Shown here: positions 1 through 11,017 of the stretch, one piece after another
Layout: every line of letters starts with the position of its first letter
Position numbering within the stretch: position 1 is the first letter of the stretch
Origin: Oscillospiraceae bacterium
GTDB lineage: Bacteria; Bacillota; Clostridia; Oscillospirales; Ruminococcaceae
NCBI GenBank assembly: GCA_031285945.1
Contig: JAITVF010000037.1
Span: 1 to 11,017 of the forward strand
DNA length: 11,017 nt
Direction of reading: 5' to 3'
Program-made: the position numbers and the translations under genes
The notes under the pieces: model-generated
The model's database searches: none
What the model saw: only the letters and a program-made list of their open reading frames with translations
What the model was told of the DNA's origin: nothing

Positions 1-36
1 CCCTTCCCTTTCGGGCTCTTTCAAGATATTTAATTT

Positions 37-68
37 AAAAAAAGCGGGCAACGCGCCCGCTTTTTTTT
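37..68 (-). terminator. rho-independent terminator of rpsU
   Basis: A 6-bp GC stem (GCGGGC 44-49 / GCCCGC 55-60, loop 50-54) is flanked by seven A on one side and eight T on the other, so the stem can extend by A-T pairs. It begins 8 bases beyond the rpsU stop. The A and T runs on both sides mean it could also work for a plus-strand transcript entering from the left, but no gene is visible there (bases 1-36 hold nothing I recognise). Confidence 0.9.
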
Positions 69-76
69 GAATCACG

Positions 77-253
77 CTATTTGAACTTACGCTTGCGCGC
101 AGCCTCGGACTTCTTCTTACGCTTAACCGACGGCTTCTCGTAGTGTTCACGCTTACGGACTTCCTGCAACACGCCCGACTTAGCACATTGCCTTTTAAAC
201 CTGCGCAGCGCGCTGTCCAAGGATTCGTTATCCTTGATGCGTACCTCTGACAT
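77..253 (-). CDS. rpsU: 30S ribosomal protein bS21
   Basis: Small-subunit ribosomal protein bS21, a component of the 30S platform near the anti-Shine-Dalgarno end of 16S rRNA. The product is 58 residues, the normal family length. It begins [19 protein letters not shown], contains the family's [12 protein letters not shown] stretch, and ends in a very basic tail rich in Lys and Arg. An upstream in-frame ATG would add ten residues, but I place the start at the ATG 251-253. It gives the standard bS21 N-terminus and has GGGAGGG about 8 bases upstream. The gene is monocistronic, with its own consensus promoter (386-414) and terminator (37-68), and lies divergent to spoIIID. The leader from the predicted start site to the ATG is about 125 nt. 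Confidence 0.96.
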
Positions 254-385
254 CTCTGATTCCCTCCCCACGCTGTGCAGCAAAAGTCGCGTCGCTGCGG
301 GAAAAGCCGCTTACCTGGCCCCCGCGCTGCCGCATCCGCCCATACGGGCGTGATCCCCCTATTAGCAACAGGATTATCAATGCTA

Positions 386-414
386 ATTATACCGGAAACA
401 AGGCCTTCTGTCAA
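386..414 (-). promoter_or_regulatory. sigma-A promoter for rpsU
   Basis: Read on the minus strand, a perfect TTGACA (409-414) and a perfect TATAAT (386-391) are separated by exactly 17 bases. Transcription should start near 379, giving a leader of about 125 nt before the rpsU ATG. Full consensus fits a highly expressed ribosomal protein gene. Confidence 0.9.
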
Positions 415-439
415 GTCAATACTTAAGAGAATGCGCGCG

Positions 440-462
440 TAAGGGCGCTGCGCGCGCCCTTA
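440..462. repeat. 9-bp inverted repeat between divergent promoters
   Basis: TAAGGGCGC (440-448) and GCGCCCTTA (454-462) form a perfect 9-bp stem with a 5-base loop. No T-run follows on either strand, so it does not look like a rho-independent terminator. It sits 26 bp upstream of the rpsU -35 box, in the roughly 450-bp divergent rpsU/spoIIID region. Apart from this repeat and the two promoters, I see nothing in 284-700; the open frames there have no Shine-Dalgarno and no recognisable product. A protein-binding site or a barrier between divergent transcripts is possible but unproven. Confidence 0.5.
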
Positions 463-645
463 AAATATAGCGTGACCGCGCTGGCAGCCGGCGGGCGATT
501 ACGGGTAGCCGCCGCGAGGCTTCCCGTAAGCTGTTTAGCGTTGGATATCGCCCTGTGCGCAAGGCAGATGGCCCGCCGCCCCGCGGGGGACGACAGACGG
601 CAATGCCAAACGCCAATAAAAAGGGGAGCAGATTCGCGAATAAAG

Positions 646-676
646 TCATATCTTCCCTGAGTGCCCGCATATAAAT
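646..676 (+). promoter_or_regulatory. candidate sigma-E promoter for spoIIID
   Basis: TCATATCT (646-653) resembles the sigma-E -35 element, and CATATAAA (668-675) resembles the CATACAAT-type -10 element. The spacing is 14 bases, within the usual range for sigma-E. In Bacillus subtilis spoIIID is transcribed by the mother-cell sigma-E, so the match is where it is expected. The implied start near 682 leaves a short leader before the Shine-Dalgarno at 693-699. No good sigma-A promoter was seen in this interval. Confidence 0.6.
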
Positions 677-705
677 TAGCATAGTACATCGAGGGAGGGT
701 TGGAT

Positions 706-963
706 TTGAAAGGGTTGCCCGAAGAGCGCGCGGTCGCGCTTGCGCAGTATATAGTGGAAAAAGGCGCCACGGTGCGCCAGGCGGCAAAAAAGTTCAGTGT
801 AAGCAAATCAACCGTACATAAAGATGTCAGCGAGCGGCTGCGGACTGTTAACGAGAATCTTTACGAGGCGGTAAAACGTGTGCTCGAACAAAACAAACAG
901 GAACGTCATATACGCGGGGGCCTTGCAACCAAGACCAAATACGAGCTCCTGCGCGGCAAATAA
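706..963 (+). CDS. spoIIID: sporulation transcriptional regulator SpoIIID
   Basis: SpoIIID is the small DNA-binding regulator that acts in the mother cell after sigma-E, activating and repressing sporulation genes. The 85-residue product carries a helix-turn-helix at about residues 21-42 with the signature SVSKSTVHKDVSERL, followed by the basic C-terminal region RHIRGGLATKTKYELL typical of the family. Length matches the usual 80-95 residues. I choose the TTG at 706 over the TTG at 700. GGGAGGG (693-699) then lies 6 bases upstream, whereas from 700 it would abut the start codon. The resulting N-terminus, MKGLPEERAV, also lines up with clostridial SpoIIID (MKEYIEER...). The gene stands alone, with a sigma-E-like promoter and its own terminator. 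Confidence 0.95.
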   Translation: MKGLPEERAVALAQYIVEKGATVRQAAKKFSVSKSTVHKDVSERLRTVNENLYEAVKRVLEQNKQERHIRGGLATKTKYELLRGK

Positions 964-997
964 CCGGGAGCGGTATTCTTAGGTTATAAAAAAACAC

Positions 998-1037
998 GAG
1001 GGCGTGCGGGCTTATAATCCCGGGCACGCCCTCTTTT
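998..1037 (+). terminator. rho-independent terminator of spoIIID
   Basis: GAGGGCGTGC (998-1007) pairs perfectly with GCACGCCCTC (1024-1033), with further G-C pairing inward, and is followed by TTTT. It starts 34 bases after the spoIIID stop. An A-run precedes the stem, so weak function on the other strand, facing the MFS gene, is possible. Confidence 0.85.
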
Positions 1038-1052
1038 ATATTGGCGGGCTAT

Positions 1053-1217
1053 TAGGGCTTGTTTGATAAATAACCCATGTTCGTCATTTTGCCAAATTTT
1101 GCAGATTCCCTGCTCGTCGCCCTTGCCTGGCGTCAGCCAAGCGGCGTCCTCCTCACACAAAATCCGTCAAAATTTTAGGCAAAAGCACGAACTGGAACAT
1201 TTATCAAACAAGCCCTA
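1053..1217. mobile_element. MITE-like element with 19-bp terminal inverted repeats
   Basis: The ends, TAGGGCTTGTTTGATAAAT (1053-1071) and its exact complement at 1199-1217, form perfect 19-bp terminal inverted repeats. Imperfect complementarity continues inward: TTCGTCATTTTGCC near 1080 against GGCAAAAGCACGAA near 1178, and CCAAATTTTG near 1092 against CAAAATTTT near 1167. Arms total about 50 bp around a GC-rich centre with its own small hairpin (GGCGTCAGCC). The outer TA on each side could be a TA target duplication, as in IS630/mariner-type MITEs. No plausible coding frame lies inside. It sits between two converging genes, so its insertion broke nothing visible. Element type is inferred; no second copy is in this window. 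Confidence 0.7.
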
Positions 1218-1238
1218 TACCGGCAGTATTATATTTTA

Positions 1239-2414
1239 TCATCTCACGCCCTTGTAGAGCCCGACCGTCATAAAGGCCATGGCAAAAAGCAAAATCGCTG
1301 TAAAAACCGGCAACAGCCCGTAGCCTGCCCGCGCGCCCATAAGACCGAAGAGGGGCGGCATTAATGTTGTGCCCACATAGGCGCTGGCCATCTGGAGCCC
1401 GATCATGGCCTGTGAATTTCCTCTTCCAAAGTTCGCGGGGGTATCGTGTATCAGGCTCGGATATATGGGCGCAAGGCCAAGGCCGATCAGGAAGAGGGCC
1501 GCCGAAATATAATAGCCCCCAAATGGCAAAAACAGCATAGCCGCTCCCGCCCCGATAACAAGCTGGCCCAGCGTGATCATACGCCTGTTGCTGAGCTTTA
1601 TGGCCAGGAATCCCGAGGCAAGCCTGCCAAGTGTAATCCCCGCGTAATAAACGGAAATGCGGCCGGCGGCGGCAGTAGTGGTAAACCGGTGAACAGTTAC
1701 AAGATAACTGCCGCCCCAAAGCCCCACCGAGCTTTCTATAGCGCAGTAGCAAAAAAAGGCGAGCATAACCTGTTTGGCTCCCGGGAGCCTGAGCAGAAAA
1801 AGCGCAGGCGGAGCTTTTTCGCCCTCACCTTCATCTTCTCCTCGCGCCGGGGGCGCTTTTTTCCAGAGCGGCAGCGAAAAGATAAGTATCGCCGCAAGCC
1901 CGAGCTGCAATATGGAAATCGTCCTGTAGCCCGAGCTCCAGGAATTAAGGCTCGCAAGGCTGCGCGCCATTATAACCGGGCCCAGTGACGCGCCCAGGCC
2001 CCAGAAGCAGTGAAGCCAGCTCATATGCCTCGCCTTGTAATGTAAGGCTACAAAATTGTTAAGCGCCGCGTCCACCGAGCCCGCGCCCAAGCCAAGCGGT
2101 ACGGCGCAAAGGCAGAGGGTCGCAAGCCCGCCCGAAACAGAAAATCCCCACAGGGCCGCCGCCGTCATGGCAACGCTTGCGGCGGTAACCGCGCCGGTTC
2201 CGAACCGCCTTATAACGCGGTCGCTTAGCAAGCTGGAGACCACGGTGCCCGCCGATATAATAACCGATATGATTCCCGCCGCGTCAATGCCGACGCCAAG
2301 CCCCCCATACATCGAGGGCCAGGCGCTGCCCAGCAGCGAATCGGGCAGCCCGAGGCTTATAAATGAAAGGTAGATTATCCCCAATAATAAAAGCATCCCA
2401 AACCATCCTGTCAT
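1239..2414 (-). CDS. MFS transporter, substrate unknown
   Basis: A 391-residue, very hydrophobic protein with a twelve-helix major facilitator pattern in two halves. The halves are joined by a charged central loop (about residues 185-203, KKAPPARGEDEGEGEK). The loop after helix 2 reads LLSDRVIRRFGTG, a recognisable MFS motif A. The stretch GAGSVDAALNNFVALHY...MSWLHCFWGLGASLGP resembles sugar/fucose-permease-like (FHS) members, but the substrate cannot be read from sequence. The start is uncertain. The ATG at 2414 has no Shine-Dalgarno. The in-frame ATG at 2396 has AGGA about 9 bases upstream and would remove only six residues. It lies 163 bp downstream of folT on the same strand, with no clear terminator between, so partial co-transcription is possible. 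Confidence 0.85.
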   Translation of the reverse strand: MTGWFGMLLLLGIIYLSFISLGLPDSLLGSAWPSMYGGLGVGIDAAGIISVIISAGTVVSSLLSDRVIRRFGTGAVTAASVAMTAAALWGFSVSGGLATLCLCAVPLGLGAGSVDAALNNFVALHYKARHMSWLHCFWGLGASLGPVIMARSLASLNSWSSGYRTISILQLGLAAILIFSLPLWKKAPPARGEDEGEGEKAPPALFLLRLPGAKQVMLAFFCYCAIESSVGLWGGSYLVTVHRFTTTAAAGRISVYYAGITLGRLASGFLAIKLSNRRMITLGQLVIGAGAAMLFLPFGGYYISAALFLIGLGLAPIYPSLIHDTPANFGRGNSQAMIGLQMASAYVGTTLMPPLFGLMGARAGYGLLPVFTAILLFAMAFMTVGLYKGVR

Positions 2415-2426
2415 AAAAATACAAAT

Positions 2427-2439
2427 CGCGACACGCGAC
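2427..2439. repeat. CGCGAC tandem direct repeat upstream of the MFS gene
   Basis: CGCGAC occurs twice, at 2427-2432 and 2434-2439, one base apart, 12 bases upstream of the annotated MFS start. It may be a half-site pair for a regulator or chance. No convincing promoter boxes were found in the rest of 2415-2577. Confidence 0.3.
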
Positions 2440-2577
2440 AGCTACAATAATATGCTAACATAAAGCTAAATACGGCCGCCCGCATAGCCTTCGCTCGCGA
2501 ATCACATATGCTGTGGTTTGCGCGTTTTTTTGTCATGTATAGTAGATTAACCTGTCGAATAAAAATCCCGCATAATC

Positions 2578-3120
2578 TCAGGCGTGGCTGATTCTGCCCG
2601 CCTCAAGGCGGCGCGCAAGGCGGCAGAACATCCAGGTCAAGAAAACGTGAAGGGGAATTTGAACTATGTTATTGACGATGCGCTGGCCCGTAAAAAACGT
2701 ACCGGCGGCCGCTCCGTACATAATAATATTCCACAGGTAATTTACCCCAAGGGTTACAAGCAAGGTCTGGGAAATATGGGCAAGAGTCACCCGCGGCACG
2801 CTGAGCCTTTGCCGGTAGAGGAAAAGCGCGTAGATAAAATTTACAATCATGGCGCTGAGAGCGTAGCCGGGAAACCACGGGCCCATCGGCCTTGCGATAT
2901 AGCCCACCGTATCGGCTACAAAGCCGAAGGCCACGCCCGCCCAGGGACCAAAGAGGCATCCGACGACCGCGCCCGGCAGGTAGGATAAAGAAAGCAGCTT
3001 AAAGGTATCGCCAATCGCTATGGTAAACTGCGACAGCACAAATGTAAGCGCCGCCATAAGGGCCATAAGCACCAGGTTGCGTGTCCTGAAAACACTCTGC
3101 AACGAAAAAAAAGTTCGCAT
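2578..3120 (-). CDS. folT: ECF transporter S component, folate-type (FolT)
   Basis: A 180-residue integral membrane protein of the ECF S-component type, with about six hydrophobic helices and short loops. These proteins bind a vitamin in the membrane and work with a shared EcfA/A'/T energising module, which is not encoded in this window. Family-like stretches include RNLVLMALMAALTFVLS at the first helix, LPGAVVGCLFGPWAGVAFGFVADTVGY..GPWFPGYALSA in the middle, and a C-terminal NYLWN..YG.....QRIVNNIVQIP region typical of FolT. The folate assignment is reinforced independently by a tetrahydrofolate riboswitch in the leader. Start ATG 3118-3120 is preceded by GGAGGT (3128-3133). That site is buried in a 13-bp hairpin, implying ligand-dependent control of translation. 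A small cytoplasmic basic tail ends the protein. Confidence 0.88.
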   Translation of the reverse strand: MRTFFSLQSVFRTRNLVLMALMAALTFVLSQFTIAIGDTFKLLSLSYLPGAVVGCLFGPWAGVAFGFVADTVGYIARPMGPWFPGYALSAMIVNFIYALFLYRQRLSVPRVTLAHISQTLLVTLGVNYLWNIIMYGAAAGTFFTGQRIVNNIVQIPLHVFLTWMFCRLARRLEAGRISHA

Positions 3121-3126
3121 AAAAAA

Positions 3127-3174
3127 TACCTCCGTTTATAATTTCGGCGGCATCCTGCGACATAAACGGAAGTA
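3127..3174 (-). promoter_or_regulatory. Shine-Dalgarno sequestering hairpin of folT
   Basis: On the minus strand TACTTCCGTTTAT (from 3174 to 3162) pairs with ATAAACGGAGGTA (from 3139 to 3127) over 13 positions with one G-U pair. This hides the entire GGAGGT of folT. A competing hairpin uses CATAAAC (3185-3191 on the plus strand reads gtttatg) to capture the same GTTTATG strand (3161-3167), reinforced by GGAA/TTCC. The two structures cannot coexist, which is the layout of a translational riboswitch expression platform. Confidence 0.75.
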
Positions 3175-3192
3175 TTATTCCATTGTTTATGC

Positions 3193-3313
3193 AACAGCGG
3201 GATGCGGAAAGCGCATCGCCAGACCATGACTTTTTCCTCAAAAGCCTTGCCTGTTCGTCCGTTCGGCAACTCCCCGTCCAAACGGCGCGTAACGCACGCT
3301 ATCCTACTCTATT
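3193..3313 (-). promoter_or_regulatory. tetrahydrofolate (THF) riboswitch aptamer
   Basis: Read on the minus strand, the element starts AATAGAGTAGGATAGCG and continues GTGCGTTA. It then has a stem CCGTTTGG/CCGAACGG enclosing a GACGGGGAGTTG loop, then ACGAAC, and ends GCATCCCGCTGTT. These blocks match, in order, the conserved THF motifs GAGUAG, GCGUUA, a GGGA-type loop, ACGAA and GCAUCCGC. AATAG pairs with CTGTT to close P1. GGATAGCG pairs with CGCTTTCC (one mismatch) as P2. CGGG of the loop can pair with CCCG near the 3' end as the known pseudoknot. THF riboswitches usually control folate transport or synthesis genes, and folT follows directly. Recognition is from memory of the family, without a covariance search. 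Confidence 0.8.
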
Positions 3314-3346
3314 GACAATGCGGGCAAAGCCTCGCCCAAACCTGAT

Positions 3347-3373
3347 TGTATAGCATAGCCCGATAAAAAGCAA
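3347..3373 (-). promoter_or_regulatory. possible promoter for the folT leader
   Basis: On the minus strand an extended -10, TGCTATACA (3347-3355), lies about 34 bases upstream of the riboswitch aptamer. A poor -35 candidate, TTGCTT (3368-3373), is at 15-base spacing. The extended TG may compensate. The start would be near 3340, just ahead of the aptamer, as needed. The rest of 3374-3477 holds only short GC-rich hairpins without assigned role. Confidence 0.45.
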
Positions 3374-3477
3374 GGGAATTAACTTTTATTTTGCCGCATG
3401 GGGCCGGCAGCGCCCGGAGCCCGGGCAGCGAGCGACCGCGGGTAATCTGCGGGACCGCCCTTATACCGCTCCCGCAT

Positions 3478-3506
3478 TTGACTGTCCGCTACAATTAGAG
3501 TATTAT
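3478..3506 (+). promoter_or_regulatory. sigma-A promoter of the desulfurase-thiI operon
   Basis: TTGACT (3478-3483) and TATTAT (3501-3506) at exactly 17 bases, each one mismatch from consensus. The start would be near 3513, about 35 bases before the TTG start codon of the desulfurase gene. No regulator site is evident, so expression is likely housekeeping. Confidence 0.8.
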
Positions 3507-3547
3507 GATTTTATTAACCCCGAATCCCTAAAGGAGCTGTTCTTAAC

Positions 3548-4714
3548 TTGCGCGAGGTTTATCTCGACAACGCCGCGACTACCCGCACACATCCAGACGT
3601 CGCTAAAAAAGCGCTTTTTATGATGCGTGAGGAATACGGCAACCCATCCTCACTCCACGCCAAGGGCCTTTCGGCAAGCGCCGCCCTGGAAGAAGCCCGG
3701 GGCAGGCTTGCGGAAATCTTGGGCTGCGAGCCGCGGGAGGTCTACTTTACCTCCGGCGGGACTGAATCCAATAATCTGGCGCTCACCGGCGCTTTTGAAG
3801 CGCGCCGGCGCAAGGGCTCGGGCATTGTGACAACGGCGGTAGAGCACTCCTCGGTCATTGAGCCCCTTCAGTTTCTTGAGAAAGAGGGCGCGAGGCTCAG
3901 CGTCGCCCCTCCACTGCCCGACGGCCGGTTCGACAAGAACGCCATAGCCGGCGCGGTTAATGAGGATACCGTTCTTCTTTCCTGCATGCTGGTCAACTCC
4001 GAGACGGGGGCCGTCGCTCCATTAGAGGAAATATCGGCGGCGGCAAGGGCCAAAAACGAGCGAATCCTCATACATTGCGACGCCGTGCAGGGCTTTGGCA
4101 GGCTTAACGTCTCCCCCAAAAGGCTGGGGGCCGACCTTATGAGCGTCAGCGGCCACAAGCTTCACGCCCCAAAGGGGATCGGCGCGCTGTATATTAAAAG
4201 CGGCGTGAGAATCCTGCCCATTTTAAAAGGCGGCGGGCAGCAGGTTGACAGAAGGCACGGCGTTTCCATCCGCCCCGGCACCGAAAACGTCCCCCTTGCG
4301 TGCGCTTTTGCCGAGGCCGCGTCCATAATGCACGCCAACCGGGCGGGAAATCTTGCCCATTTGCGGGATCTTTGCGAATATTTTATGAAAAGAGCGGCAA
4401 ATACACCGGGCTTGTGCATCAATTCACCCGGCGAAATGGCACCTTATATTTGTAACGTAAGCGCGCCGGGGTACCTTAGCGGGCACCTCGTCTCCTTCCT
4501 TTCGGAGCGGGGGGTGTACGTCTCGGGCGGGTCCGCCTGCTCGGGCGGAAAGGACAGCCGCGTCCTCGCGGCCATGGGCCTTGCCCCCGAACGTATAAAG
4601 GGGGCTGTGCGGGTTAGCCTCTGCCCCGACAATACCGAAGAAGACCTGGCCGCGTTCTTCGACGCTCTCGAGACCGCGACGCAAACTCTAAGGCGAACAG
4701 GGGCGCAGGGTTAA
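3548..4714 (+). CDS. cysteine desulfurase (NifS/IscS/NifZ type)
   Basis: PLP enzyme that takes sulfur from L-cysteine as a protein-bound persulfide and releases alanine. Cytosolic, 388 residues, normal for the family. Visible landmarks: N-terminal YLDNAATT (residues 5-12), TSGGTESNN (68-76), His100 in VEHSSV, Asp178 and Gln181 in HCDAVQ, PLP lysine Lys204 in SGHKLHAPKG, and the sulfur-accepting Cys331 in GGSACSGG. The loop after the Cys is about two residues shorter than in E. coli IscS. The segment after GGGQ (228-231) is about six residues longer than usual before RPGTENV. The start is TTG with AAGGAG 11 bases upstream; the product begins at the conserved N-terminus. thiI follows after 26 bases, so the most likely job is feeding sulfur to ThiI, as B. 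subtilis NifZ does. Confidence 0.93.
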   Translation: MREVYLDNAATTRTHPDVAKKALFMMREEYGNPSSLHAKGLSASAALEEARGRLAEILGCEPREVYFTSGGTESNNLALTGAFEARRRKGSGIVTTAVEHSSVIEPLQFLEKEGARLSVAPPLPDGRFDKNAIAGAVNEDTVLLSCMLVNSETGAVAPLEEISAAARAKNERILIHCDAVQGFGRLNVSPKRLGADLMSVSGHKLHAPKGIGALYIKSGVRILPILKGGGQQVDRRHGVSIRPGTENVPLACAFAEAASIMHANRAGNLAHLRDLCEYFMKRAANTPGLCINSPGEMAPYICNVSAPGYLSGHLVSFLSERGVYVSGGSACSGGKDSRVLAAMGLAPERIKGAVRVSLCPDNTEEDLAAFFDALETATQTLRRTGAQG

Positions 4715-4740
4715 ATCAAAACCGGGGAGCAAACAGATAC

Positions 4741-5922
4741 ATGAAGGAAATCATACTGCTCAAAAGCGGCGAGATCGCCCTCAAGGGCTTAAACCGCGGA
4801 AGCTTTGAAGATATGCTTATCAAAAACTGCAAGAGCGCGCTGAAGGATCTCGGGGAATTCAGGTTCCTAAAGGCTCAGTCGACCACCTTTGTGGAGCCTG
4901 CGGGAGACTGCGACATGGCCGAGGCCCTGGAGCGGCTTTCGCGCGTATTCGGGATCGCGGCTCTTTGCAGGGCCCGCGTGGCCGAAAAGGATTACGCCGC
5001 CCTGGAGGAGGCCGCCGCCGAATATCTGGGCCGCGAGCTTTTGTCAGCCAGGACCTTTAAAGTAGCCGCCAAGCGCTCCGACAAGCGATTCCCTCTAAAC
5101 TCCCCGCAGATATGCGAAAAGCTCGGCGCGTTTTTGCTCGGGCGCTTCCCCCACCTCAGGGTGGACGTTGAAAGCCCCGACGTTCTCGTTACGGTCGAGA
5201 TCCGCGACTTCGCGGCCTACCTTCACGGACGCCAGATACCGGGCGCGGGCGGGATTCCCGTTTCATCCTCCGGGCGGGGAATGCTTCTTCTCTCGGGCGG
5301 GATCGACAGTCCCGTGGCCGGGGTGATGATGGCTAAGCGAGGGCTTTCGATAAGCGCCATACACTTCCACACGCCCCCCTACACGAGCGAGCGGGCGCTT
5401 TACAAGGTAAAGCGCCTCGCCGGGATAATGACGCGCTACTGCGGTACGATACCCCTATTTATAGTCCCCTTCACCAAAATCTCCGAGCAGATCAGGGAGC
5501 TTTGCCCCGAGCAGCTTTCGACCATAATTATGCGCCGTTTTATGATGCGTATAGCCGACCGTATGGCTCAGCGCGACGATTGCGGCGCGCTTATTACCGG
5601 CGAGAGCGTGGGCCAGGTGGCCAGCCAGACCCTTCCCTCCCTCGCCTGCACCCAGGAGGGGCTGAGCCTTCCGGTGCTGCGGCCCGCGGTTGGAATGGAC
5701 AAGGAGGAGATCGTATCCCTCTCCCGTAAAATCGGCGCGTTCGAGACCAGCGTAGAGCCCTTCGACGACTGCTGCGTGGTCTTTACCCCCCGCCACCCCA
5801 AAACCAAGCCTAAGCTTGAAGAAATAATAAGGGCCGAAGAAGCCCTGGACCAGGGAGCCCTGATTCTTGAGGCGCTTGACGGCATAGAGAAAGTGTTAAT
5901 CCGCAATTTTGCCGGCTGCTGA
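4741..5922 (+). CDS. thiI: tRNA 4-thiouridine synthase ThiI
   Basis: tRNA sulfurtransferase that adenylates U8 of tRNA and replaces its oxygen with sulfur to give 4-thiouridine; some homologues also serve thiamine thiazole synthesis. 393 residues, the Gram-positive form lacking the C-terminal rhodanese domain of E. coli ThiI. Domains in order: ferredoxin-like N-terminal part and THUMP (about 1-165), ending in EIRDFAAYLHGRQIPGAGGIPV; then the PP-loop ATP pyrophosphatase with LLLSGGIDSPVAG (182-194), a TGESVGQVASQT block (286-297) and a Cys pair at 344-345 in FDDCCVVFTPRHPKTKP. Without a rhodanese domain, sulfur must come directly from a desulfurase, which is the gene just upstream. ATG start with GGGGAG 11 bases upstream. 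Confidence 0.96.
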   Translation: MKEIILLKSGEIALKGLNRGSFEDMLIKNCKSALKDLGEFRFLKAQSTTFVEPAGDCDMAEALERLSRVFGIAALCRARVAEKDYAALEEAAAEYLGRELLSARTFKVAAKRSDKRFPLNSPQICEKLGAFLLGRFPHLRVDVESPDVLVTVEIRDFAAYLHGRQIPGAGGIPVSSSGRGMLLLSGGIDSPVAGVMMAKRGLSISAIHFHTPPYTSERALYKVKRLAGIMTRYCGTIPLFIVPFTKISEQIRELCPEQLSTIIMRRFMMRIADRMAQRDDCGALITGESVGQVASQTLPSLACTQEGLSLPVLRPAVGMDKEEIVSLSRKIGAFETSVEPFDDCCVVFTPRHPKTKPKLEEIIRAEEALDQGALILEALDGIEKVLIRNFAGC

Positions 5923-5958
5923 CGGCTAAAAACTAACAACTACCCGGGGGGTTTTGCC

Positions 5959-8900
5959 TTGATCGCAGAGATTATTCTCATGCCCGACAGCCCTGACGCG
6001 TCAGAGAGCGCGAGGGTCTGCGCGCAAAGCGTGGCGCGGACCCTTAGCGGCGTGGGAATAAAGGTCCGCGAGCAGATAGGCCTTTGCGCGGGCCGGGGCG
6101 ACCTGCAAAGGGGAATCGCGGGCGCCCTTCGCCGCAGCAACCTTGTTATGATCCTGGGCGGACTGTCGCCCGAGTCGGGCGGCGTGGCCAGGCAGGTGGT
6201 CGCGCAGGGGCTCAGCCTTTCGACAGAGCTTAATCGCGACCTGCTCGATTCGATCCGAGATTACTGCCTTAAGACAGGAACCCCACAGGAGGATACCGAC
6301 GAAGCACTTGCCGTAATTCCGCGCGGCTCCCTCTTTTTTCCGGGGCGGGCGGGTAAAACCCCGGGGCTCATAATTTCGTCCTCAAGGCAGCATATTATAA
6401 TGCTGCCGGCGGTTGAGGAGGAGGCGGCGCAGCTTCTTAAAGAGGACGTTCTGCCCTGGCTTGCCAACCGGCCGACCGCCGAGCCGGCTACCGTAACCCG
6501 CACCGTACGCACCTGGGGTATTTCTGAGGAAATGGTTCGCAAAACAATCGCGGGCGTTATGAATTCCTCAAATCCTTCCGTTACTCTCCAAAAGGAGGGC
6601 GCGGAGATTCTTGTGCGGGTTAGCGGGCAGGGCGCCGGCGCCGGAGAAGCCGCGGCGGCCTGTACTCCGGCGCTTCAGCGGATTGTCGACCTGCTGGGCG
6701 ACTGCGCCTACGGCCTGGACGTGGATTCGCTGCAGGACGCGGTGGCGGACAAGCTGTTAAAAAAGCGGCTGAGCGTAGCCATAGCTGAATCTGGCAGCTC
6801 GGGAATGCTGGCCCGGGTCCTGAACGAGGCGGCGGGCGGCTCGCAGGTTCTGCGCCAGAGCGTCCTTGTCGACGACGACTACGAAAAAAAGGGGATTCTT
6901 GATATTCCCGGCAAGCTTCTTAAAAAGCGGGGCGGAGTCTGCGAGGAGGTCGCGGTCGCCATGGCCGACTCGGCAAGGGGTTTGGCGGACGCCGACATAG
7001 GCGTAGCCGTAACCGTCGGCCGGGGGGGCGACAAGCGCGCTCCCTGCGGCCTTGTGTATATAGCGGTCGCCGACAGCTCAAGCGTCTATGTCAAAAAGCT
7101 GGTGGTGGGTACCGGAGACCCCGCCGAAAACAACTACGTGGTCGACGCGGCCCTCTCGCGCGCCCTCAACATGATTCGCCTCTTTGTAGATTACCTGCCC
7201 GGGCGCTATATGGGCGCCATTCCTCTCGCGGACGCCCTCGCCGGCCGAACCGTAACCGACCTGCCCGACGAGGACACGGGCGGGAACGCCGGGCCACGGG
7301 AGAGCAAAGGCTTTGCGCGCAGGTTTTTCGGCAATTTCCATATCAAAAGGGCCGACAGGCCGGGGGTTAAGGTGAAGAAGCTAATTTTTATACTGGCTGT
7401 CCTGGTTTTTCTCGGTTCCGCGGGATACATCGGCTACTGGTATTTACAGTCCTGGCAGTTTCGGATGCAGTCGGTGGATCTCAGGGATATGTACACCTAC
7501 GGCAACATAGACCCCGGCGACCTGCCCGAGGATTTCCCCCGCAACTACCAGACTAAATTCGCCGCCCTTTACGCCCGAAACGAAGATATAATGGGCTATG
7601 TGAGCTACCCCGGCACCGAGATGGCTTACCCGGTGGTTCAATCGGAGGATAACGAATACTACCTGCGCCGCGATTACGACAAAAACCAGACTCAGCACGG
7701 CATACCCTTTCTTGACTGGCGGGTGGACGCTAAAACCCCCAGCGACAATATGGTCGTCTACGGCCACAACATGCAGGACGGCCAGCTCTTCGGCGAACTG
7801 ATGAGCCTTAACACCTACACAAATTCAGGCGCGGTCGATTTTTATAAAGAGCACCCCGTCTTTGATTTTTCCACCGTATACTCCGACGGTCAATACGCCA
7901 TCTTCTCGGTTTTTATCACCAACGCTTACCCCGAGCAGGGCCCTGTTTTTGATTACCACAACTTTATAGAGGCCAAAACTGACGATGATTTCGCCGCATA
8001 TGTAAAGGAAATCAAGGTCCGCAGCCTGATCGACACCGGAGTCGATGTAGAGCCGGGAGACAAGCTGGTCACACTTTCCACCTGCACCTACGAATTCACC
8101 GACGCCCGGTTTGTGGTGGTAGGGCGCAAGCTGCGCCGCAATGAAACCCCCGAGGACTTCGATACCTCGGCCGCTGTCCGCAATCCCTCTCCCCTTATGC
8201 CCGATATCTGGTACGACGCCTTTGGCGGCTCAAAGCCCGATATCGCGGGGGGGGCTAATGTAGTCACCTCCCCCGCGGCCGCCTCCCGCCTGCAGGTGAC
8301 TACCCCCCAAGCACTTTTGGCAGATCTGACCAGGGACGAAACCACCAGCCTGGAGACCGCGCCGCCAGGCCTTTCCCCGGAGGAGGACGGCGAACCTGAC
8401 GAATATTCCCAGCGGGGGGAGGCCTCGCAGCTTACCGGCGAGCCTGTAAGTATTAGCGCCCTCTCTTCCGCCGAGTCGTCACCCGAGCCCTCGCCTCCTC
8501 CCGAGCCCTCGCTTCCCGAGCGCCCGCCGCTTCTTCCCGAATCCTCCGAGCCGGAGCCTCCCAAGCCCGAATCCTCGGCGGCCGAAGAGGACGACCTTTG
8601 GGGGATAGACTTTGAGGAAGAGTCCTCAGAAAATATTGAAGACGCTGACGAGAATGAGAAGGCGGAAAACGAGGAATCGGCAGGGGACTACGACCGGAAA
8701 AGCCGGGACGCGGGCGAGCTTATGGTGACCGCCGGAGGAAAAACCGTAACCGGCGACGCGCTGGATATAGTTTCCCGCATCGTGCAAAACGAGATCGGCT
8801 CCGGTTTCCATACCGAGGCCATCAAGGCCCAGGCCGTGGCCGCCTACACCTTTATAAGCTTTTACAACCAGTCCGGCAGCGCCCCTTCGGTGATACTCGC

Positions 8901-9483
8901 CCCGTCGGCCGGCTCAAAGGTTACCTCCGCCGTGGAATCGGTTCTTGGCGAGGCCGTATATTACAGGGGGAACATAGCCCTCACAACCTACTACGCAACC
9001 TCAGCCGGGCAGACGGCCTCCTCCCGCGATGTGTGGGGAACGGCCTACAGCTACCTGGTTTCTGTAGACAGCCCGGTTGATGAGAACGTTAAAACCTTTA
9101 AGGCGACCAAGACCTTCAGCTACGATCAGATGCGTGATATTATAGACGATACCCTGGGCATCTCCCCCGACGGCGAACCCGAGGACTGGTTCGAAATACT
9201 CGGCCATCTCGACGGCGGCTACGTTGGAAATGTAAGAGTCTGCGGCGAAACCGAAACCTCTGGCGGCCGGAGAATTACAGGGCGATATCTGCGCGAAAGC
9301 GTTTTCGGTCTGCGCAGCTCCTGCTTTGAGATCGAGTTTGACGGCGACGACTTCATATTCACCACCTACGGCTACGGCCACGGCGTGGGAATGAGCCAGA
9401 ACGGCGCCAACGGCTACGCGAATGAGGGGCTTAGCTACGATGAAATTCTCACCCACTACTACCCCGGCACAGAGGTGTATTGA
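5959..9483 (+). CDS. CinA-like / class B sortase / SpoIID fusion membrane protein
   Basis: A single open frame of 1174 residues. Residues 1-170 resemble the MoaB/MogA-like domain of CinA, with its GGLGPT motif altered to GGLSPESGG (67-75). Residues 175-270 resemble the CinA middle domain, and 271-412 the CinA C-terminal (PncC) domain. There AES is kept (Ser278), but CTGG and the GIAGP loop are lost and the YSNxAK tyrosine aligns with Asp305. A basic stretch then leads into one transmembrane helix (about 474-496). Residues 535-725 are a class B sortase with His603 (YGHN), Cys709 (LSTC) and Arg717. A low-complexity Pro/Ser/Glu linker (about 770-915) joins a SpoIID/LytB domain (920-1174), with Glu945 in QNEIGSGFHTEAIKAQAVAA and a GHGVGMSQNGA motif. 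CinA parts should be cytoplasmic and the rest outside. TTG start, GGGGGG 7 bases upstream. An in-frame GTG at 7372 could start a shorter sortase-SpoIID form. Function is unknown; cell-wall anchoring plus peptidoglycan remodelling is inferred. Confidence 0.88.
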   Translation: MIAEIILMPDSPDASESARVCAQSVARTLSGVGIKVREQIGLCAGRGDLQRGIAGALRRSNLVMILGGLSPESGGVARQVVAQGLSLSTELNRDLLDSIRDYCLKTGTPQEDTDEALAVIPRGSLFFPGRAGKTPGLIISSSRQHIIMLPAVEEEAAQLLKEDVLPWLANRPTAEPATVTRTVRTWGISEEMVRKTIAGVMNSSNPSVTLQKEGAEILVRVSGQGAGAGEAAAACTPALQRIVDLLGDCAYGLDVDSLQDAVADKLLKKRLSVAIAESGSSGMLARVLNEAAGGSQVLRQSVLVDDDYEKKGILDIPGKLLKKRGGVCEEVAVAMADSARGLADADIGVAVTVGRGGDKRAPCGLVYIAVADSSSVYVKKLVVGTGDPAENNYVVDAALSRALNMIRLFVDYLPGRYMGAIPLADALAGRTVTDLPDEDTGGNAGPRESKGFARRFFGNFHIKRADRPGVKVKKLIFILAVLVFLGSAGYIGYWYLQSWQFRMQSVDLRDMYTYGNIDPGDLPEDFPRNYQTKFAALYARNEDIMGYVSYPGTEMAYPVVQSEDNEYYLRRDYDKNQTQHGIPFLDWRVDAKTPSDNMVVYGHNMQDGQLFGELMSLNTYTNSGAVDFYKEHPVFDFSTVYSDGQYAIFSVFITNAYPEQGPVFDYHNFIEAKTDDDFAAYVKEIKVRSLIDTGVDVEPGDKLVTLSTCTYEFTDARFVVVGRKLRRNETPEDFDTSAAVRNPSPLMPDIWYDAFGGSKPDIAGGANVVTSPAAASRLQVTTPQALLADLTRDETTSLETAPPGLSPEEDGEPDEYSQRGEASQLTGEPVSISALSSAESSPEPSPPPEPSLPERPPLLPESSEPEPPKPESSAAEEDDLWGIDFEEESSENIEDADENEKAENEESAGDYDRKSRDAGELMVTAGGKTVTGDALDIVSRIVQNEIGSGFHTEAIKAQAVAAYTFISFYNQSGSAPSVILAPSAGSKVTSAVESVLGEAVYYRGNIALTTYYATSAGQTASSRDVWGTAYSYLVSVDSPVDENVKTFKATKTFSYDQMRDIIDDTLGISPDGEPEDWFEILGHLDGGYVGNVRVCGETETSGGRRITGRYLRESVFGLRSSCFEIEFDGDDFIFTTYGYGHGVGMSQNGANGYANEGLSYDEILTHYYPGTEVY

Positions 9484-9525
9484 TACGGCCTAAGAGTGAA
9501 AATACAGCCAGGAGATGAAGCCTTG

Positions 9526-9942
9526 ATGAAAAGCTTTCGCAAAGAGCTCACCTTTAATATCCCATCAAGACGGGGTTTTAGGAATATCACCCGGGAGGTT
9601 CAGGCGGCAGTGGATGAAAGCGGCGTAAGGGAAGGGCTTTTGCTCTGCAACGCCATGCACATTACCGCCAGCGTATTTATAAACGACGACGAAAGCGGTC
9701 TTCATAGTGATTTTGAAGACTGGCTCGAAGCTCTCGCTCCCGAAAAGCCCCACGCCCGCTACCGCCACAACGGCTACGAAGACAACGCCGACGCTCACTT
9801 AAAGCGGAGCGTGATGGGCCGGGAGGCCGTTGTTGCGGTAACAAAAGGCAAGCTCGACTTCGGCCCCTGGGAGCAAATATTCTACGGCGAGTTCGACGGC
9901 CTGCGCGAAAAACGCGTCCTGATAAAAATCATAGGCGAGTAG
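9526..9942 (+). CDS. YjbQ / UPF0047 family protein
   Basis: A 138-residue member of the YjbQ family (UPF0047), small cytosolic trimers for which a weak secondary thiamine-phosphate synthase activity has been reported; the true role is unsettled. Family blocks seen: [11 protein letters not shown] near the N-terminus, [45 protein letters not shown], and the C-terminal [25 protein letters not shown] choose the ATG at 9526 because it gives the usual N-terminus. GGAG (9511-9514) lies 11 bases upstream; the adjacent in-frame TTG at 9523 is a close alternative, and a GTG at 9496 lacks a site. It is the last gene of the operon, 42 bases after the fusion gene, and is followed at once by a long palindrome. 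Confidence 0.92.
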
Positions 9943-9945
9943 CCC

Positions 9946-9995
9946 CGAATAGAACAGGCAGCCGTGAACGCGTTCGCGGCTGCCTGTTCTATTCG
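9946..9995 (+). terminator. 50-bp palindrome at the operon end
   Basis: CGAATAGAACAGGCAGCCG (9946-9964) is the exact complement of 9977-9995. The centre, GAACG/CGTTC (9966-9975), is also self-complementary, giving 25-bp arms with a single T/G pair that would be U-G in RNA. It starts 4 bases past the yjbQ-family stop. No T-run follows, so it is not a textbook rho-independent terminator, though position suggests transcript end formation or 3' protection. Confidence 0.6.
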
Positions 9996-10032
9996 CGCCC
10001 TGGCCAACTGGGGCAATGCTTACAATGGTTGA

Positions 10033-10061
10033 TTGACATTTTACGATGTTTCCTATAAGAT
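10033..10061 (+). promoter_or_regulatory. promoter of the GntR-family gene
   Basis: Perfect TTGACA (10033-10038) with TAAGAT (10056-10061) at 17 bases; TATAAG (10054-10059) at 15 bases is an alternative -10. The start would be near 10068, about 40 bases before the ATG. The -10 region overlaps a palindrome that could be an operator. Confidence 0.7.
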
Positions 10062-10066
10062 TATAG
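10053..10066. promoter_or_regulatory. candidate operator over the -10 region
   Basis: CTATAAGATTATAG is a palindrome with perfect 6-bp arms around a central GA, covering the -10 box and the following bases. GntR regulators often repress their own gene through an AT-rich dyad at such a position. Autoregulation is inferred from placement only. Confidence 0.45.
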
Positions 10067-10108
10067 AAGGTTACGTTACAAGTTGACGAAAAGAAACGGA
10101 GTCTGACC

Positions 10109-10843
10109 ATGATCGATTTGCAAAGCGCTACTCCATTGTACATGCAGGTCAAGGAGGACCTCATTCAAAAAATACGGGCAAAGGCGTTTGAACCCTCCAA
10201 CCGGTTGCCGTCCGAAAAAGAACTGGCCAGAATGTATGCGGTCAGCATGATTACTATTCGCAGAGCGGTCTCAGATCTGGTAGAGGAAAAATTGCTTCAC
10301 AAGCAGCAGGGTAAGGGTACCTTTGTGCTTTGGCGTCCGTTTGAGCGCGATGTATCTCATTTTTCGCTGAGCTTTACCGAGGCCTGCAGGGCGAACAATA
10401 TGGTAGCCTCGGCCGAGCTGCTGTGCAGCGCCGTAGAAAACGATCCTCCGGCTTTTGTTCGAGAAGCGCTCAAGCTGCCGCCCGGCGGCGGCGCGTTGTT
10501 TATTAAGCGGCTGCGGTATGCCAACGGGCACCCCATTGTCATTGAATCCACGTACTTTCCAATGTCCTACGCGTTTTTGCTCGATCTTGACCTCAATAAC
10601 AAGTCCCTGTACGAGAGCCTGAAAGCCAATGACCCATCCATTTGCATTCTTGTGAAGGAAGGCAGCCGCACCCTAAAGCTGACGCGCGCCGAAAAAGAAA
10701 CCGCGCAGCTGCTGAATATTGGCGCGAAAGCGCCGGTTCTGCTGTTCCGCAGCCTGGTGTTCAACGCGACAACCTCAATGCCCGTCCACACCAGTGAACA
10801 GATTGGCTACAGCGATCAATACGATTTTACCTTTCGCTTATAA
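10109..10843 (+). CDS. GntR-family regulator, HutC type (UTRA domain)
   Basis: A 244-residue transcription factor. Residues 1-73 form the GntR winged helix-turn-helix, beginning TPLYMQVKEDLIQKI and containing NRLPSEKELARMYAVSMITIRRAVSDL and the wing KQQGKGTFV. Residues about 93-240 fit the UTRA effector-binding domain, with FIKRLRYANGHPIVIESTYFP and the C-terminal TSEQIGYSDQYDFTFRL. HutC-type members usually sense sugar phosphates, amino acids or similar small molecules; the ligand here is not readable. ATG start, GGAG 7 bases upstream. It has its own promoter and is followed by a strong hairpin, so it appears monocistronic. Its target operon is likely itself or genes beyond the right edge. 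Confidence 0.93.
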   Translation: MIDLQSATPLYMQVKEDLIQKIRAKAFEPSNRLPSEKELARMYAVSMITIRRAVSDLVEEKLLHKQQGKGTFVLWRPFERDVSHFSLSFTEACRANNMVASAELLCSAVENDPPAFVREALKLPPGGGALFIKRLRYANGHPIVIESTYFPMSYAFLLDLDLNNKSLYESLKANDPSICILVKEGSRTLKLTRAEKETAQLLNIGAKAPVLLFRSLVFNATTSMPVHTSEQIGYSDQYDFTFRL

Positions 10844-10854
10844 CCGAACCCTAA

Positions 10855-10894
10855 AAAGCGGCCCCCGTGGCGTTAACGCCACGGGGGCCGCTTT
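10855..10894 (+). terminator. 40-bp perfect palindrome, terminator of the GntR gene
   Basis: A perfect palindrome centred on GTTAAC at 10872-10877. Its GC-rich arms begin AAAGCGGCCCCCGTGGCG and end with CTTT. It lies 11 bases past the stop. Symmetry and the A/T ends suit a bidirectional rho-independent terminator, though the T-run is only three bases. Confidence 0.7.
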
Positions 10895-10913
10895 GCGTAA
10901 CTTATACTACTCC

Positions 10914-10927
10914 GCATTTTAAAATGC
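10914..10927. repeat. AT-rich 14-bp palindrome
   Basis: GCATTTTAAAATGC is a perfect palindrome 20 bases after the GntR terminator. It may be part of a control region for a gene beyond the right edge, or chance. No start codon or promoter pair is clear in 10895-11017. Confidence 0.35.
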
Positions 10928-10944
10928 TTCTTTATATTGCTTAC

Positions 10945-10993
10945 GAACAGCTCATCAGGGCAAAGTGTTACATGTGCCCATTAAAAGCTGTTC
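10945..10993. repeat. two-stem inverted repeat near the right edge
   Basis: GAACAGCT (10945-10952) pairs with AGCTGTTC (10986-10993). Inside it, GGGCA (10958-10962) pairs with TGCCC (10975-10979), leaving unequal internal loops and a 12-base terminal loop. No T-run follows. It could be an RNA leader structure or an operator of the next gene. Confidence 0.35.
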
Positions 10994-11017
10994 ACAAAGC
11001 TCCATTGTCTTTATATT

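Follow-up and report, generated by a model that had tools for sequence, protein, structure and literature searches.

We describe here a window of 11,017 nucleotides (the whole stretch of DNA that was analysed; contig JAITVF010000037.1 of assembly GCA_031285945.1, positions 1 to 11,017) from an Oscillospiraceae bacterium, in which a single gene encodes a CinA-like part, a membrane helix, a class B sortase and a SpoIID/LytB domain on one chain. The gene stands third in its locus, after a nifS-type gene and thiI. The features are listed below; residues named as having equivalents carry the numbering of the reference proteins cited further on.

3548..4714, + strand: NifS/IscS-type cysteine desulfurase, which opens the locus (best NCBIfam match NifS, below the equivalog cut-off)
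4741..5922, + strand: thiI, tRNA uracil 4-sulfurtransferase, second gene of the locus (352.8 bits against a cut-off of 264.5)
5959..9483, + strand: fused gene of 1174 codons, MoCF-KH-PncC, membrane helix, class B sortase, linker and SpoIID/LytB (open reading frame, Pfam, NCBIfam and relatives)
5959..6483, + strand: degenerate CinA N-terminal (MoCF/COG1058) domain; E12, D45 and D76 equivalents are S, A and G, the E156 equivalent is kept
6496..6714, + strand: CinA KH domain, residues 180-252 (Pfam)
6724..7176, + strand: degenerate PncC/CinA domain, residues 256-406; the Ser/Lys dyad (S278 and K310) is kept, the Y58 and R145 equivalents are D and V
7360..7446, + strand: single membrane helix, about residues 468-496 (hydrophobicity)
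7543..8139, + strand: class B sortase domain, residues 529-727; codons of H603 at 7765-7767, C709 at 8083-8085 and R717 at 8107-8109
8143..8703, + strand: acidic, proline-rich linker, residues 729-915 (composition); the part that changes fastest between relatives
8743..9477, + strand: SpoIID/LytB domain, residues 929-1173; catalytic E945, codon 8791-8793

An earlier note, made from the sequence alone, had proposed that one uninterrupted frame joins CinA-like, sortase and SpoIID domains, and Pfam and NCBIfam searches find every one of these parts. The frame is open over all 1174 codons, and its TTG start at 5959, with a GGGGGG that ends 7 bases upstream, matches the starts of relatives. In Pfam, MoCF_biosynth (residues 22-169; 27.1 bits, cut-off 26.6) and SpoIID (residues 938-970; 25.2 bits, cut-off 23) pass narrowly, and CinA_KH (180-252; 46.8 bits against 27), CinA (256-406; 91.1 against 23.5) and Sortase (551-723; 35.1 against 26.6) are also over their cut-offs. 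Among the NCBIfam models, the window protein passes the class B sortase TIGR03064 (161.3 bits against 153.75) and SpoIID/LytB TIGR02669 (137 against 83.3), and reaches neither the CinA equivalog cut-off (206.2 of 379 bits) nor that of the sporulation SpoIID TIGR02870 (156.6 of 234.75 bits). As the class B sortase is the only NCBIfam equivalog cut-off that it passes, name-based annotation may hide the fusion. Solved relatives by sequence are CinA 6MR3 and 4CT8, the class B sortases 1RZ2, 2OQW and others, and SpoIID 4RWR and 5I1T. His603, Cys709, Arg717 and Glu945 stand in the translation exactly where the earlier note had placed them; the only stretch above the hydrophobicity threshold, residues 468-496, lies between the CinA part and the sortase as the topology demands, and the linker is acidic and proline-rich as described (46 D/E, 10 K/R and 26 P in 187 residues).

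The chain looks real because related genomes show its three genes separate, partly joined and fully joined. The chains of genomes G006 and G007 align to residues 1-1173 in one frame at 55-57% identity, and a three-part chain is present in seven of the ten genomes of the same genus, the KH domain being undetected in G009; the genomes without the full chain are G002 and G004, cut by contig ends, and G003 (75% complete), with no long match. In all, 37 three-part chains were counted in 37 genomes, three-part meaning a sortase and a SpoIID with at least a MoCF or a PncC match (PncC is undetected in eight of these chains and MoCF in two); the KH-PncC-SrtB frames of G018, G022 and G034 stop at contig ends, so that chains there may be counted as split. 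Some of the assemblies with the chain consist of just two or three contigs (G008, G014). Matches at E 1e-70 were found in 79 of 297 family-sampled genomes and 47 of 126 genera, at E 1e-60 in 21 of 394 order-sampled genomes, and at E 1e-50 in 6 of 391 class-sampled genomes, the window genome included each time; these are not counts of fusions, as a match may reflect one very similar domain. All six class-level matches lie within the same taxonomic order, and among the five besides the window genome, the match covers a lone sortase frame in G059 and G127 and a lone SpoIID in G025. Judged by these sequence matches, the architecture extends across one family and the order to which it belongs, in the Clostridia, and is not unique to the window genome. 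No relative was found in the viral contig collection and no match covering 80% of the query in the plasmid and phage collections; the genome contig collection gave one locus, L004, on the same contig as G495, and the census of chains and residues leaves out L004 and two further sortases of the window genome. A record filed as Bacteriophage sp. (L263, MT835515.1) carries nifS-thiI-PncC-SrtB-SrtB-SpoIID and, because of this gene content, is probably a mislabelled bacterial contig.

The nifS-type gene lies upstream of thiI in most loci examined, and the co-directional order nifS-thiI-cinA-srtB-spoIID occurs in several states, its last three genes standing apart, joined in pairs or forming a single frame. 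They stand apart in G023, G517, G573 and G650; a CinA-SrtB fusion stands next to a separate SpoIID in, for example, G011, G033, G472 and G553; PncC alone accompanies three sortases and a SpoIID in G025, G171, G283, G333 and G396; PncC is fused to SrtB in G015, G058 and G529; and CinA is joined to SpoIID, the sortase being undetected, in G016 and G021. In G028, G042, G048, G051 and G059 the stretch examined shows thiI-cinA with neither sortase nor SpoIID, and in G042 no visible nifS either. On a tree of ThiI the fusion state needs 17 changes; this tree holds 62 of the 67 genomes, with 42 of its 59 inner branches not starred, and G497, G545 and G639 have no ThiI within the stretch examined. The locus is thereby a natural series from separate through pairwise joined to fully joined genes, and a link between protein anchoring, glycan cutting and CinA can therefore be tested piece by piece. 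Four loci have, behind an intact cinA, a further gene made of KH, a PncC remnant and a truncated sortase, which looks like a decayed tandem copy; this gene is joined to SpoIID in two of them (L053, L054) and interrupted by the contig end in the other two (L142, L143). Three CinA-SrtB chains (L130, L173, L180) carry 444-560 extra residues of no identified type C-terminal to the sortase, and their genomes additionally encode a MoCF-SrtB-SpoIID chain.

With a hydrophobic stretch taken as a Kyte-Doolittle mean of 1.6 over 19 residues, one is present in 68/68 CinA-SrtB joins versus 0/37 SrtB-SpoIID joins. Lone sortases (41/43) and lone SpoIIDs (23/27) have such a stretch ahead of the domain, and among 29 lone CinA/PncC proteins it occurs, at any position, in only two (G002, which is cut by a contig end, and one PncC). 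Fusion therefore goes with a helix that parts CinA from the two wall enzymes, and SpoIID gives up its separate anchor when it joins the chain. By the positive-inside rule, CinA would be cytoplasmic and the sortase and SpoIID would lie outside the cell.

CinA takes part in the recycling of nicotinamide adenine dinucleotide (NAD). Its residues for magnesium and adenosine diphosphate (ADP)-ribose are E12, D45, D76 and E156 in Thermus thermophilus numbering, according to the accessible part of PMC4246079, and those of PncC are S31, K63, Y58 and R145 in Agrobacterium tumefaciens numbering, where the S31A, K63A, Y58A and R145A proteins had no detectable activity according to the portion of PMC5384747 that was available. 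The window equivalents are S/A/G/E and S/K/D/V, respectively, so that three magnesium/ADP-ribose residues and the residues for the phosphate of nicotinamide mononucleotide are replaced and E156 and the Ser/Lys dyad are kept; by this alignment most of the residues that contact ligands in the two active sites are gone from the CinA part. Compared with bifunctional CinA (T. thermophilus 4CT8, Streptococcus mutans 6MR3), the MoCF-KH-PncC order, the folds, the dyad and the E156 equivalent are the same, whereas the E12, D45, D76, Y58 and R145 equivalents are replaced, the chain continues into a membrane helix and two wall enzymes, and most genomes with the degenerate form carry a second CinA elsewhere.

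We scored a CinA part as degenerate when at least one scored residue was changed; the four PncC residues can all still be present, as in G430. Lone CinA/PncC proteins are intact in 27/29, the other two being the contig-cut G002 and G004. Among 30 CinA-SrtB chains, 14 keep every scored residue in both parts, 12 combine a degenerate CinA with an intact sortase triad, and four are degenerate in both; contig ends cut three of these four, and also G461, which is scored degenerate with its N-terminus missing at the contig start. None of the 37 three-part chains is intact in CinA and sortase together: 26, the window included, have a degenerate CinA and an intact triad, two have an intact CinA and a lost triad (G027 and G024), and nine have lost both. 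G024 appears as degenerate in the raw tallies, as its called start excludes E12; the upstream frame holds the motif, and it is here counted as intact.

A second CinA elsewhere in the genome accompanies a degenerate locus CinA in 41 of 46 genomes versus none of the 21 with an intact one (Fisher p 5e-13, kinship ignored), in a census of 67 genomes chosen for holding the locus and with the second CinAs compiled by reading. The five without one are the window genome, G036 (87% complete), G429 (91%), G430, which keeps its PncC residues, and G024, which is really intact behind its misread start. All eight scored residues are intact in each of the 10 of 41 second CinAs that were residue-checked; in G032 and G454 the match sits in a short frame (235 and 177 residues). 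In a tree of CinA proteins the ten second CinAs cluster as a single clade (97), nested in a supported set (96) of 21 rows whose other members are CinAs of different families in the order. Nine hand-picked degenerate locus CinAs also group together (99), a grouping of fast-changing rows that long branches may have helped. The sequences fit a single acquisition of the second CinA followed by decay of the locus copy, a direction that we infer.

The degenerate part nevertheless appears to be maintained in places. Ratios of nonsynonymous to synonymous substitution (dN/dS) were calculated after Nei-Gojobori; the estimates are rough where dS exceeds about 1, and pairs with G000 were not used for any claim of selection. 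For G006-G007 the values are 0.15 in MoCF, 0.16 in KH, 0.13 in PncC, 0.10 in SrtB, 0.12 in SpoIID and 0.34 in the linker, a separate calculation having yielded comparable figures, and for G515-G581 they are 0.18-0.20 in CinA; the intact pair G472-G553 gives 0.07, 0.20 and 0.09. On these estimates, the degenerate CinA is under purifying selection in the closest testable pair, G006-G007. A model of the window CinA part (two-sequence alignment), of moderate confidence, has domains that match the solved CinA domains one by one.

The window sortase keeps its triad of H603, C709 and R717. Like the solved class B sortases (B. anthracis BA4783/SrtB 1RZ2, 2OQW and others), it has an N-terminal helix and the His/Cys/Arg triad and passes the TIGR03064 cut-off, but it is extended N-terminally by CinA and C-terminally by the linker and SpoIID, and the triad is lost in some of its relatives. 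As far as the available text of PMC11987632 goes, class B sortases act on signals of the NPxTG/NPQTN type. The TIGR03063 sorting signal was found in 4/61 genomes, none of them the window genome; PF00746 gave matches at E up to 0.1 in 18/22 genomes, over its cut-off in 10/22, with none in the window genome. A profile built from seven hand-picked signals has matches at E up to 0.5, many of them weak, in 26/30 genomes, among them an NPDTG protein of the window genome (E 1.1e-4), NPATG in G001, NPNTG in G008 and a weak NPNTG in G006 (E 0.18). G058 has an NPGTG in a frame of 2266 residues, and its PncC-SrtB chain is the only sortase detected there. In G011 a peptide of about 50 residues directly after spoIID (L032, about 12763-12915, + strand) is nearly all SPSTG signal and membrane helix. 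The pattern scan that picked it out also gave, judged plausible by eye, signal genes 2.9 and 4.9 kb away from the fused gene in G642 and one at 7 kb from G017's lone sortase; such neighbours of the locus are not general. Pfam gave no match for three of five candidate substrates, two weak unrelated matches for one, and Gram_pos_anchor under its cut-off for another. Loci L045, L046, L048 and L137-L140 hold three or four consecutive class B sortases, all with intact triads, followed by spoIID where the contig extends far enough.

The SpoIID part shares with the sporulation SpoIIDs (4RWR, 5I1T) the catalytic Glu, for which the reference residue was taken from the accessible part of PMC6934232, and the C-terminal GHGVGMSQ block; it is over the TIGR02669 cut-off but under that of TIGR02870, and falls in a separate clade. 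The Glu is kept in 71/71 frames. In the tree, the 70 SpoIIDs of the locus group (rows over 100 bits, at least one of them, in G028, from a gene not adjoining thiI) make up a single clade (98) that excludes 20 short SpoIIDs of 20 same or related genomes. These comparison proteins score 222-333 bits on TIGR02870, 16/20 over the cut-off and those of G009, G010, G030 and G035 slightly below it (222-230 bits); the range is 106-182 bits for seven lone SpoIIDs encoded at the locus, and the window protein has 157. Membership in the sporulation SpoIIDs is ruled out by the TIGR02870 score and the separate clade. A scan for the zinc-ligand motif, as given in the part of PMC6934232 available, found none in the locus group and only two in the 20 comparison proteins and does not discriminate. 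Spo0A was found in 57/61 genomes, the window genome included, and SpoIIP in 52/61; G027 (96% complete) lacks both, yet has the three-part chain, which speaks weakly against a role in sporulation only. The window also carries a gene for the sporulation regulator SpoIIID (700-963, + strand, 125.8 bits), and the lineage therefore has sporulation genes.

Taken together, we consider it rather likely that the gene encodes a membrane-tethered wall-remodelling protein, with a pseudo-CinA inside and a sortase and a lytic transglycosylase outside the cell. In this reading the second CinA would perform the metabolic work; the pseudo-CinA would serve as a cytoplasmic dimerising or positioning base rather than as a sensor of NAD metabolites, CinA proteins being dimers in the literature as far as it was accessible; the SpoIID domain, tethered by about 190 residues, would cut glycan strands without stem peptides; and the sortase, held at the membrane, would anchor NPxTG-type proteins near the cutting spot. 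That wall opening may be coupled to protein anchoring, as the earlier note suggested, is favoured because relatives carry the same genes side by side as separate genes. A stronger form, which we put forward only tentatively, is that of one trans-membrane wall machine in which the transglycosylase clears glycan, the sortase installs NPxTG proteins there and a captured CinA became the pseudoenzyme base; if so, an NAD-recycling enzyme was captured and turned into a pseudoenzyme once the second CinA took over its metabolic role. The case would be of interest because a metabolic enzyme would have become a pseudoenzyme within a membrane protein, its likely replacement being identifiable in the same genomes. 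The fusion is a new combination of known parts: in line with the earlier note, which knew of no such system, no literature combining sortase, SpoIID and CinA was found in a search whose coverage left out preprints and most subscription papers, and those papers that mention sortase and SpoIID include, by title and start of abstract, none on such a fusion.

Several observations weigh against this reading. Firstly, no second CinA was detected in the window genome, which is 76.6% complete, and on the ThiI tree the CinA state needs five changes, with one supported independent pair and at most five; with so few, the association with a second CinA mainly reflects one ancient event. Secondly, constraint on CinA is weak in some pairs (G426-G525, 0.40-0.90; G030-G035, 0.42 in KH and 0.79 in PncC; G599-G647, 0.36 in PncC). 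Thirdly, the modelled CinA domains are placed unlike those of solved CinA (whole-chain root-mean-square deviation 12-13 A), a placement that we did not use because the model comes from a two-row alignment with a mean predicted local distance difference test score (pLDDT) of 69.6 and a predicted template modelling score (pTM) of 0.45. Finally, the triad is lost in 11/37 three-part chains, including that of G009 in the same genus, so that sortase chemistry is not always needed; the window genome encodes two more sortases; and a pattern scan of the neighbourhood found no sorting-signal gene beside the window gene.

The main alternative is that SpoIID alone matters, as a membrane-anchored lytic transglycosylase for which CinA and sortase are an inert scaffold, a spacer and an anchor. 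The invariant Glu agrees with this, as do the degenerate CinA in 35/37 three-part chains and the lost triads, and the triad-less sortases of G443, G533 and G642 are under purifying selection (dN/dS 0.09-0.10), as would be expected of a scaffold. A mere spacer should however lose its triad faster, and the triad is intact in 26/37 three-part chains, the window included, and in 42/42 lone sortases; we regard this alternative as unlikely, though a serious contender.

Decidedly less probable is a sensory role for CinA, in which its sensing of a nucleotide or metabolite would control the sortase and SpoIID outside. In its favour, the folds of the domains are preserved, purifying selection is seen in some pairs, the window protein has its Ser/Lys dyad, and 14/30 CinA-SrtB chains keep all scored CinA or PncC residues. 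However, the earlier note's proposal of such a sensor is not supported for the known sites, as the equivalents of E12, D45, D76, Y58 and R145, ligand contacts of both, are replaced in the window protein, which may still bind another ligand; moreover, PncC is undetected in eight chains with MoCF and sortase in which the rest of the chain persists, and in G014, G205, G300 and G639 the remaining space is too short for the usual KH-PncC stretch.

Improbable to a greater degree still is that the fusions are a by-product of a tight operon, with three unrelated activities on one chain and no working link. Adjacent, co-directional genes in most loci examined and the 17 changes of fusion state would suit such an origin, but the gene order is kept, the helix is invariably at the CinA-SrtB join and never at the SrtB-SpoIID join, and a degenerate CinA is retained in most chains. 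An assembly join or frameshift, for which the fragmented window assembly (224 contigs) might have spoken, is ruled out by independent assemblies with the same chain in one frame, in seven of ten same-genus genomes and 37 genomes overall.

As for the surroundings, the nifS-thiI-fusion genes are flanked on one side by an energy-coupling factor (ECF) transporter S component (2578-3120, - strand) and on the other by YjbQ (UPF0047; secondary thiamine-phosphate synthase in NCBIfam; 9496-9942, + strand). A promoter-like site, a perfect TTGACA-17-TATAAT match at 414-386 (- strand), lies upstream of a small basic open reading frame (77-283, - strand), which we take to resemble ribosomal protein S21.

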